From Clostridia bacterium (GTDB lineage Bacteria > Bacillota > Clostridia > Monoglobales > Monoglobaceae), in NCBI GenBank assembly GCA_017546205.1, contig JAFYXJ010000005.1, positions 1-64,000 on the forward strand: DNA of 64,000 nucleotides, read 5' to 3'. Of the stretch, positions 41,211-55,969 are shown piece by piece (position 1 is the first letter of the stretch; the number at the start of each line of letters is the position of its first letter). A program made the position numbers and the translations under genes. The notes beneath the pieces are model-generated. The model saw only the letters and a list, made by a program, of their open reading frames with translations. It was not told where the DNA came from and ran no database searches.

Positions 41211-41272
41211 CGGAGGGAGAATCCTCCCGTCTCGCGTTTGTGCGAGACACCCCCCTTTAGGCAAGGAGGGCA
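41211..41272. repeat. Solo repeat related to the DUF559 element ends
   Basis: Contains GGAGGGAGAATCCTCCC, a GTCTCGC/GCGAGAC hairpin (41229-41248), then ACCCCCCTTTAGGCAAGGAGG. This is the same layout as the right end of the element at 50.7 kb (TCCCTCCGTC, hairpin, ACCTCCCTTTAGGCAAGGGAGG). No gene is attached. Confidence 0.65.
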
Positions 41273-46592: not shown

Positions 46593-46684
46593 TGGAGGAG
46601 AGGATGGGATTCGAACCCACGGTACGCTATAAACGTACACAGCATTTCCAATGCTGCGCCTTAAACCATCTCGACCACCTCTCC
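46593..46684 (-). tRNA. tRNA-Ser (anticodon GGA)
   Basis: A 92-nt cloverleaf including encoded CCA. The acceptor GGAGAGG pairs with CCTCTCC. The anticodon loop TTGGAAA gives GGA. A long variable arm (GTACG...CGTAC) is as expected of class II tRNA-Ser, and the T-loop is GTTCGAATC. It reads UCC and UCU codons. Confidence 0.97.
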
Positions 46685-50229: not shown

Positions 50230-50290
50230 GGCATCTGGTTTTTTGTTTTAACCTGATATGGGAATAGTAAGAATGTCGAATATTGTCGAA
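50230..50290 (+). repeat. Intergenic repeat copy a with tandem 0A-like boxes
   Basis: GGCATCTGG...AATAGTAAGAA followed by two exact TGTCGAA boxes at 50274 and 50284 (10 bp apart). It is followed directly by the left end of the DUF559 element. Confidence 0.65.
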
Positions 50291-50294
50291 ATAA

Positions 50295-50744
50295 AAAGCC
50301 TCCCTTGCCTAAAGGGAGGGGGACCGCTTTAGCGGTGGAGGGATAGATGGAAAGAAAACACAATACAGAATTAACAACAAATGCAAAAATTCTGCGTAAA
50401 AATATGACAAAAGAAGAACGACATCTTTGGTATGATTTCTTGAAAAGTTATCCCATTAGATTTTTAAGGCAAAAGGTGATTGATAATTATATAGTTGATT
50501 TCTATTGCCATAGCGCAAGGTTGATTATTGAACTTGACGGTTCACAGCATTATGAAGAAAAAGGTTTGCTGAAAGATAAAATCAGGACAGAAAAAATAGA
50601 ACAAAGAAATTTGACTGTTATAAGAATACCTAACAACGAAGTAAACAGAAACTTTGAGGGAGTGTGCCAGTACATAGATAATGTTGTTAAAGAATCCCTC
50701 CGTCAGCCTACGGCTGCCACCTCCCTTTAGGCAAGGGAGGCTTT
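50295..50744. mobile_element. Inverted-repeat-bounded DUF559 element
   Basis: A 450-bp unit with perfect 25-bp terminal inverted repeats (50295-50319 and 50720-50744). Each end is itself a hairpin (CCTCCCTT/AAGGGAGG) and is followed inside by a second small hairpin (CCGCTTTAGCGG at 50324; CAGCCTACGGCTG at 50704) and a GGAGGGAT-type block. One ORF fills the interior. There is no obvious target-site duplication. Relatives of these ends are common intergenic repeats in Clostridia as I recall them. Confidence 0.7.
50347..50730 (+). CDS. DUF559 (Vsr-like, PD-(D/E)XK-related) protein
   Basis: The 127-residue protein matches DUF559 proteins: an N-terminal ARILRKNMT-type segment (AKILRKNMTKEERHLWYDFL), FLRQKVIDNYIVDFYCHSARLIIELDGSQH (about 42-71, with the D...E.D-type nuclease residues) and RTEKIEQRNLTVIRIPNNEV. 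The family is related to very-short-patch-repair endonucleases; its role is unknown. The Shine-Dalgarno GGAGGGA is part of the left repeat, and the final ~12 codons and stop (TAG 50728) lie in the right repeat, so the gene and the repeats are one unit. Confidence 0.85.
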   Translation: MERKHNTELTTNAKILRKNMTKEERHLWYDFLKSYPIRFLRQKVIDNYIVDFYCHSARLIIELDGSQHYEEKGLLKDKIRTEKIEQRNLTVIRIPNNEVNRNFEGVCQYIDNVVKESLRQPTAATSL

Positions 50745-50751
50745 GATGCAC

Positions 50752-50801
50752 GGCATCTAGATTATACAGTCTTTATAGTAAGAGTGTCGAATATTGTTGA
50801 G
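50752..50801 (+). repeat. Intergenic repeat copy b
   Basis: GGCATCTAG, ACAGTCTTTATAGTAAGAG, then TGTCGAA (50785) and TGTTGAG (50795), 15 nt before the start of the 50816 gene. Confidence 0.65.
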
Positions 50802-51289: not shown

Positions 51290-51338
51290 GGCAACCAGAG
51301 CATACAGTCTTTATGTAAGACTGTCGAACATTGTTGAA
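51290..51338 (+). repeat. Intergenic repeat copy c
   Basis: GGCAACCAGAG, the perfect palindrome ACAGTCTT-TATGT-AAGACTGT (51304-51324), then TGTCGAA (51322) and TGTTGAA (51332), 14 nt before the HAD gene. Confidence 0.65.
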
Positions 51339-52360: not shown

Positions 52361-52603
52361 ATGAATATAAATACCGAAACAATTACAACAATGACAGAAG
52401 CAAATCAGAATTTTTCAAAAGTTGCTAAAGTTGCAGAAAATAATGGTCAGGCAGTTATCTTCAAAAACAACAAGCCCAAATTTTTGCTTATTGACGTTGA
52501 CTCAAATTCATACTTTGATATTACTGATGATGAAAAAATAGATGTGGCGGCAAAAAGAATTATGCAAAGATTCAAACCTGCTTTTGAGGAGTTGGCAAAA
52601 TGA
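52361..52603 (+). CDS. phd: Phd/YefM-family antitoxin
   Basis: Antitoxin and autorepressor of 80 residues. The N-terminal part matches the Phd/YefM DNA-binding fold (TMTEANQNFSKVAKVAENNGQAVIFKNNKPKFLLI, about 10-45), with a C-terminal acidic tail that would wrap the toxin. AGGAGGTAG precedes the ATG. The stop overlaps the doc start by 4 nt (ATGA). The operator palindrome upstream supports autoregulation. Confidence 0.88.
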   Translation: MNINTETITTMTEANQNFSKVAKVAENNGQAVIFKNNKPKFLLIDVDSNSYFDITDDEKIDVAAKRIMQRFKPAFEELAK

Positions 52604-52977
52604 TTAAACTGAGCAAAGAAAAAGTTTTGCTGTTGCATCAATTAATAGCAGAAGAAACGGGCGGCAGTGTCGGTGTAAGAGATGTTGGACTTTTAGAAAG
52701 TGCACTTAATAATGCGTATGCTACATTTGGCGGAGAAGAACTTTATAAAACCAAAGAGGAAAAAGCAGCAAGTCTTGGATTCTCATTGATATCCAATCAT
52801 GCTTTTGTTGATGGTAATAAGAGAATAGGTGTATATGTTATGCTGACATTTTTGGAAGCAGAGGGAATAAAAGTGACTTGTACCAATGCAGATGTTGTTG
52901 ATTTTGGACTGTCTGTTGCATCGGGCAATATGAAATATGATGATATTTTAAATTGGATCAATAAATTCAAAAAGTAA
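52600..52977 (+). CDS. doc: Doc-type Fic-fold toxin (death on curing)
   Basis: Kinase-like Fic-fold toxin which in phage P1 phosphorylates EF-Tu. The 125-residue product has the active loop HAFVDGNKRIG (about residues 67-77), matching HxFx(D/N)xNKR, and the N-terminal VLLLHQLIAEETGGSVGVRDVGLLESAL typical of Doc. All key residues (His, Asp, Asn, Lys, Arg) appear present. It is translationally coupled to phd. Confidence 0.92.
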   Translation: MIKLSKEKVLLLHQLIAEETGGSVGVRDVGLLESALNNAYATFGGEELYKTKEEKAASLGFSLISNHAFVDGNKRIGVYVMLTFLEAEGIKVTCTNADVVDFGLSVASGNMKYDDILNWINKFKK

Positions 52978-55803: not shown

Positions 55804-55823
55804 TTTTTACACAAAAAGATGAT

Positions 55824-55907
55824 GGTTCCTACGACGGCATTATCCGTATCAGGTTCTCGGGTCGAAATCCAACTTTCCTCTCAGCCTGTTAAAGCTCCCC
55901 GTATCTT
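55824..55907 (-). ncRNA. TPP riboswitch (THI element)
   Basis: Read on the minus strand it has the conserved segments in order: ATACGGGGAGC, GGCTGAGAGG (CUGAGA), GACCCGAGAACCTGAT, CGGATAATGCCG and CGTAGGAA. Thiamine pyrophosphate binding would turn off thiT by favouring the terminator. Confidence 0.95.
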
Positions 55908-55969
55908 CGATTTTGTTCATTGTAACACAGGACAGAAAAAAATGCAAGAAAAAATTAGATAAGTTACCG

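Follow-up and report, generated by a model that had tools for sequence, protein, structure and literature searches.

A DUF559 nuclease gene bounded by inverted hairpin repeats as a probable transposase-free mobile element in Clostridia

Hairpin-forming repeats resembling repetitive extragenic palindromes (REPs) are among the commonest repeats of bacterial chromosomes, and to our knowledge an enzyme is known for their GTAG superfamily only. In REPtrons, which encode a REP-associated tyrosine transposase (RAYT, or TnpA-REP; PMC2817692, PMC8266576), a single gene stands between two inverted hairpin repeats that also occur in dispersed form, singly or as inverted doublets; the gene is inherited together with its repeat, and gene-less copies hold the 3' part of the gene. 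Here we describe a 450-bp unit with each of these features at positions 50295-50744 of a 64,000-nucleotide stretch (the window) from a Clostridia bacterium (GCA_017546205.1, contig JAFYXJ010000005.1), whose one gene encodes a DUF559 protein. The unit is REPtron-like in its layout, its solo units and its co-inheritance, in agreement with the REP/RAYT-like arrangement proposed in a preliminary description of this DNA, but it fails the REPtron's defining enzyme: the protein is a PD-(D/E)XK nuclease (PF04480) where REPtrons have an HUH Y1 tyrosine transposase. Its units also consist of two hairpins and have no GTAG tag, as read from the window's end units and the unit list. DUF559 shares its catalytic-domain fold, and apparently its selfish mode of spread as a lone nuclease gene, with EDxHD/Vsr-like homing endonucleases such as I-Bth0305I (PDB 3r3p; PMC3943268), from which the DUF559 protein differs in having 127 residues and no extra DNA-binding domain; its element, unlike theirs, is bounded by hairpins, has non-autonomous copies and enters unrelated sites rather than one allele. 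What is new is the combination of a REPtron-like layout with a homing-endonuclease-like enzyme, whose role we infer. We consider it probable that the unit is an autonomous mobile element without a transposase, in which DUF559 acts on the hairpin ends in a copying process resembling that of REPtrons, a reading that is in part extrapolated; mobility as such is well supported by sequence comparison.

The perfect 25-bp inverted repeats, hairpin arms, subterminal hairpins and single nuclease-related gene first described for the unit were all recovered (Table 1). Extended beyond its perfect 25 bp, the inverted repeat reaches 28 nt at 96%, and the two ends fold as single-stranded DNA with z = -3.6 and -3.3 relative to dinucleotide shuffles. 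The stop codon and last residues of DUF559 are encoded within the right end unit. The 22-nt core of the ends occurs at three sites in the window at ≤3 mismatches (0.00 expected), and no Rfam family matches the hairpin units of the element.

Table 1. Features of the DUF559 element and of the related solo unit in the window.
Feature	Position	Strand	Description
Whole mobile unit, 450 bp	50295-50744		One DUF559 gene enclosed by inverted hairpin ends
Left end unit (type A)	50295-50344	+	Hairpin 1 50299-50319, hairpin 2 50323-50336, tail GGAGGGAT
Right end unit, inverted orientation	50694-50744	-	Hairpin 1 50720-50740, hairpin 2 50704-50716
Terminal inverted repeat, left arm, perfect 25 bp	50295-50319	+	AAAGCCTCCCTTGCCTAAAGGGAGG
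Terminal inverted repeat, right arm, perfect 25 bp	50720-50744	-	Exact reverse complement of AAAGCCTCCCTTGCCTAAAGGGAGG
DUF559 gene, 127 aa, PD-(D/E)XK fold	50347-50730	+	PF04480 match, E 1e-28
Solo gene-less two-hairpin unit, same family as element ends	~41219-41271	-	End-core match; fold z -4.9

The same anatomy surrounds related genes in a sample of 80 DUF559 loci from Clostridia, supplemented with further loci from relatives of the window genome; genome-wide unit counts are based on pattern searches. Upstream of the start codon most of these loci carry GCCTCCCTTG-loop-AAAGGGAGG (hairpin 1), then TGG, a variable hairpin 2 and ACGGAGGGAT, and an inverted copy of the two-hairpin unit follows the stop codon. 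Around about 106 DUF559 genes, hairpin 1 was matched 68 times in forward sense within 100 bp upstream and 72 times in reverse sense within 100 bp downstream, against a background of about one per 100-bp bin. Element length is narrow across the family (mostly 441-448 bp), and the related genes are found in unrelated gene neighbourhoods. Viral carriers are few (two loci in viral contigs and two phage records), too few for an empty-site comparison. Units nested within the hairpin of another unit were seen near the element ends at L008, L010, L012 and L014, an arrangement that suggests self-insertion or a preference for hairpins. At five loci of genus g7 (L087, L088, L097, L099 and L110), DUF559 genes are accompanied by dense two-hairpin units of other sequence, for example CCTTCCCCTTGAGGGGAAGG...CGGATGAGGTGT.

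Copies without the gene are abundant. The whole-unit pattern has about 140 sites in relatives, compared with 4 for a reversed control pattern, and a solo end, one of the features that the preliminary description proposed to look for, lies in the window itself (Table 1). In the order sample, units were present in all 10 genomes with a DUF559 gene of this clade and in 7 of 41 others (p = 1.5e-6). Inverted unit pairs in relatives fall into size classes of 108-139 bp (no gene), 247-253 bp (no intact gene) and 435-490 bp. Each of the nine pairs spaced 435-490 bp apart encloses DUF559 as its sole gene, whereas none of 13 shorter pairs does, and two gene-less pairs occur in the window's own genus. 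One relative (G015) has 43 units, yet one intact DUF559. Its copies of ~250 bp have ends that match its intact element and keep the 3' part of the gene; since they retain this remnant, they derive from the gene-bearing form, and at least eight of them are internally deleted derivatives of the kind expected for a mobile element. The 3' parts of rayt genes have likewise been reported as captured in bacterial interspersed mosaic elements (PMC2817692). Many contigs of G015 stop at or just past these units (C17, C24, C65, C158, C161 and C166), so short-read assemblies undercount them.

Empty sites, a further expectation for a mobile unit, were found in two groups. A ~510-bp block of G015 is absent from the matching intergenic place in four congeners. 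Between paaD and paaZ, Deinococcus psychrotolerans carries a DUF559 element whose inverted repeat spans 56 bp at 98%; strain QL22 lacks it. Another such element adjoins hpaB in D. proteolyticus and is missing there from D. radiodurans, D. deserti and D. ficus; D. wulumuqiensis holds a shortened copy at the hpaB site, and strain NW-56 carries an element at another junction of the same gene cluster. In these Deinococcus operons the element has entered positions that are free of any unit in relatives. With gene-less copies, empty sites and DUF559 alone between close unit pairs, the original proposal of a one-gene mobile element lacking a transposase is supported.

The existence of gene-less pairs with both ends also fits a homing-type parasite whose gene spreads among pre-existing repeats: DUF559 would cut further copies of the unit, such as an empty solo unit or pair, and recombination repair would then copy the gene into them. 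The frequent nesting of units in other units accords with this, as does structural similarity, since among solved enzymes whose role is known the homing endonuclease I-Bth0305I is the nearest. However, the DUF559 remnant in the gene-less ~250-bp copies of G015 marks these as descendants of a form that had the gene, the class of the ends is gene-specific and shared by left and right, and insertions such as those in the Deinococcus operons lie where relatives have no unit; we consider a homing-type parasite improbable.

The ends are matched to the protein they enclose. The loop of hairpin 1 defines four element classes (CCTA, GTGT, GTGC and GTCA), and the class agrees between left and right ends in 56 of 61 elements. 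On the DUF559 protein tree, end class changes 12 times, compared with 32.3 times with shuffled labels, and none of 200 shuffles was as low. In four genomes, among them that of the window (50295-50744 and L001), a pair of DUF559 elements from separate clades coexists, and each element bears the ends of its clade; the match between end and clade is therefore separable from host ancestry.

This coupling bears on a second alternative, that the units resemble REPs or miniature inverted-repeat transposable elements (MITEs) and are moved by a transposase encoded elsewhere, with DUF559 as cargo for repair or defence. Non-autonomous elements with cargo are common, units occur in genomes where DUF559 was not detected, and many genomes carry other transposases, Y1 genes for instance being present in 11 of 16 unit-bearing genomes. 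Yet closely spaced units were seen to enclose no cargo other than DUF559, and end type follows the DUF559 clade even within one genome; both argue against a hitchhiker. None of the 12 Y1 loci examined has units nearby, which led us to reject RAYT/Y1 as the driver; a Y1 search of G008 and G020 gave no match. MITEs and DDE insertion sequences share with the unit terminal inverted repeats and internally deleted non-autonomous copies, but the unit has double-hairpin ends, no DDE gene inside and no detected target duplication of the kind left by DDE transposases: direct repeats around 35 non-redundant elements (z 0.9) did not exceed mispaired controls, and neither did any palindromic-target signal at these insertions. 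The layout also recurs in other phyla, where the ends differ in sequence, and on balance we hold passive carriage of DUF559 to be rather unlikely. A hidden larger transposon bounded by units was likewise discarded as a candidate, the sole 2.4-kb pair enclosing a zinc-transporter-like ABC-transporter operon.

The hairpins themselves appear to be maintained as DNA structures. Across 179 distinct hairpin-2 regions, stems have a median length of 6 bp, compared with 3 in shuffles, and their positions show all four Watson-Crick pairs; this free covariation indicates that structure is kept, not sequence. GNA loops are present in 69 of about 145 hairpins (1 in 16 expected), mostly closed by C-G. In DNA, such loops of the d(GCGAAGC) type give mini-hairpins of exceptional stability; the loops favoured by RNA are GNRA tetraloops. 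The DNA-type loops suggest that the hairpins are recognised as single-stranded or extruded DNA. They also speak against a resident Vsr-like repair gene whose hairpins are terminators or regulatory elements kept for its expression, as do the strict inverted orientation, the fixed length of about 441-448 bp, the units found alone and in gene-less pairs, the unrelated neighbourhoods of related genes and the empty sites. The hairpins do lie close to the start and stop of the gene, and Caulobacter VsrA, a DUF559 protein acting in a DNA-damage context, has been proposed to serve mismatch repair (PMC12907096); even so, a resident repair gene seems to us very improbable.

The DUF559 protein of this clade is under purifying selection (median ratio of nonsynonymous to synonymous substitution rates, dN/dS, of 0.16 over 227 pairs), and 49 sequences all share residues D51, E62, D64, H68, D77 and N96. 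The predicted structure of the 127-residue protein (mean predicted local distance difference test score, pLDDT, of 88.6, the last residues being of low confidence) was matched by structure comparison to 3hrl of Neisseria gonorrhoeae (Z 14.8), to I-Bth0305I (Z 12.1, E 3e-4, TM(target) 0.81) and to Vsr (1cw0, Z 10.1; 1vsr, Z 9.7), in agreement with the kinship to Vsr and homing endonucleases suggested at the outset. The invariant residues include D51, E62-x-D64 and H68, a candidate for the EDxHD motif as read from the sequence alignment, and the protein forms a single domain, without the extended additional DNA-binding region of EDxHD homing endonucleases. The invariant residues, the low dN/dS and these fold matches make it most likely that DUF559 is active as a nuclease, one of a kind known from both homing (mobile) and repair settings. 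It shares its fold and DUF559 domain with the Vsr/VsrA mismatch-repair endonucleases (PMC12907096), but differs from these in being bounded by apparently mobile hairpin ends and in its setting: no cytosine methyltransferase gene adjoins the window gene, the neighbours of which are a YgjV-like gene, an open reading frame (ORF) without family and an HAD hydrolase. Linkage to a methyltransferase is not always required, the VsrA/ScmA pair itself lying apart (PMC12907096). One 2022 paper places a DUF559 gene in the EDxHD homing family (PMC9403480), and a DUF559 gene adjoining mam is mentioned for Faecalibacterium (PMC8836110); a literature search for DUF559, COG2852, PF04480 and ycjD found no paper linking the family to repeats or transposition.

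In the reading that we prefer, DUF559 would be the driver of movement. The protein would recognise the hairpin ends, probably when these are extruded or single-stranded at replication, and nick them, after which a new copy of the unit would be made elsewhere by repair or replication; the same protein would move gene-less pairs and solo units, as non-autonomous copies, in trans. Overall, the element would work like a REPtron in which a homing-endonuclease-like enzyme replaces the HUH transposase, and in many bacteria hairpin repeats are probably mobilised by a nuclease that does not belong to the known transposases. Mitochondrial mobile GC clusters and double-hairpin elements (PMC4478555) offer a parallel, in that these short palindromes proliferate, merge and are shuffled; they differ in being organellar and gene-less with short direct repeats at their flanks. 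Several points weigh against the reading that we prefer. Units are present in seven genomes without detected DUF559, although these are metagenome-assembled and partly incomplete, and some DUF559 genes are without one or both ends. The G015 block at the empty site contains a copy of the ~250-bp type nested in another repeat, which blurs its exact boundaries. Both forms could be moved by a factor from another locus, with DUF559 as cargo, and VsrA has been interpreted in terms of mismatch repair (PMC12907096). Finally, a phylum-wide sample included 19 divergent DUF559 genes, none of them flanked by inverted repeats. Our claim is therefore limited to subfamilies and does not extend to every DUF559 protein, mobility of the whole family being rejected on this count; the check proposed at the outset, whether DUF559 copies always lie between such ends, thus had a mixed outcome: in this clade they nearly always do, and inverted repeats enclose many DUF559 genes of other phyla, but not these divergent ones.

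An independent collection of DUF559 loci was used to survey other phyla. Inverted repeats directly bound DUF559 genes in Deinococcus (56 nt) and Sinorhizobium (114 nt, 96%), in Sphingomonas (between sufB and sufC, and between pnt genes), and in Sphingobium, Novosphingobium, Azospirillum and Qipengyuania. By inspection, about 12 of 22 loci have directly flanking inverted repeats; an automatic test found 7 of 19 flanked, compared with 2.8% in mispaired controls. The hairpin layout varies between phyla, and the order looks reversed in Deinococcus. On the Novosphingobium plasmid pTHN, the DUF559 gene is flanked by two inverted copies of CGTCATTTGCTGGCGCAAATGCCA, and these are its only copies in 1.16 Mb. 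In Neisseria (L194, ~600-1300), a DUF559 gene of the same family as 3hrl lies between palindrome-containing copies that are direct, not inverted.

Some of these flanks resemble the CGTC-tagged REPs, which consist of a CGTC tag, an 8-9 bp stem starting AT, a 4-5 nt loop and a CCA tail, and which apparently have no dedicated transposase (Di Nocera 2013 survey, PMC3733652). The Novosphingobium repeat (L190) fits this formula almost completely, with a shorter stem, and L045, L050 and L051 come near to it; hairpin 2 of several units, clostridial ones among them, has the form CGTC-stem-loop-(G)CCA, and the right unit of the window has the CGTC tag and (G)CCA tail but the stem AGCC. Clostridial units differ from CGTC-tagged REPs in adding hairpin 1 and, for the most part, in stems without an AT start, and most other DUF559 flanks examined are not of CGTC type; three further alphaproteobacterial DUF559 loci had no CGTC-type repeat at their flanks. 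We regard the connection between DUF559 and CGTC repeats as a lead suggested by sequence resemblance. A wider reading, which we put forward tentatively and with more doubt than confidence, is that DUF559 nucleases are dedicated mobilisers of a hairpin-repeat superfamily without a known enzyme, comprising the clostridial double-hairpin units, the CGTC-tagged REPs and the long-palindrome elements of Alphaproteobacteria and Deinococcus, and that they move structured DNA by hydrolytic nicking and repair.

If DUF559 does mobilise these ends, the elements would constitute a new enzyme class of mobile element, without a transposase, and a one-gene unit of ~450 bp would count as one of the smallest mobile elements able to move autonomously. 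A hydrolytic nuclease would need a mechanism unlike HUH and DDE transposition. A widespread 'protein of unknown function' would gain a testable role, and the enzyme might prove to be a compact nickase specific for DNA hairpins.

A second dispersed repeat, GGCATCT..TATACAGTCTTTATA..TGTCGAATATTGTCGAA with a AGTCTTTATATAAAGACT palindrome, lies on both sides of the window element (50264-50289 and 50775-50800) and again at ~51293-51337; it also precedes other genes, and elements of the window's DUF559 clade often adjoin it. Its TGTCGAA parts look like Spo0A boxes. Elsewhere in the window, two overlapping small ORFs at 52361-52977 encode a putative Phd-type antitoxin and Doc/Fic toxin (HAFVDGNKR motif), a transfer RNA lies at 46596-46684, and a thiamine pyrophosphate (TPP) riboswitch (RF00059) at 55808-55911 on the minus strand scores above the gathering score.
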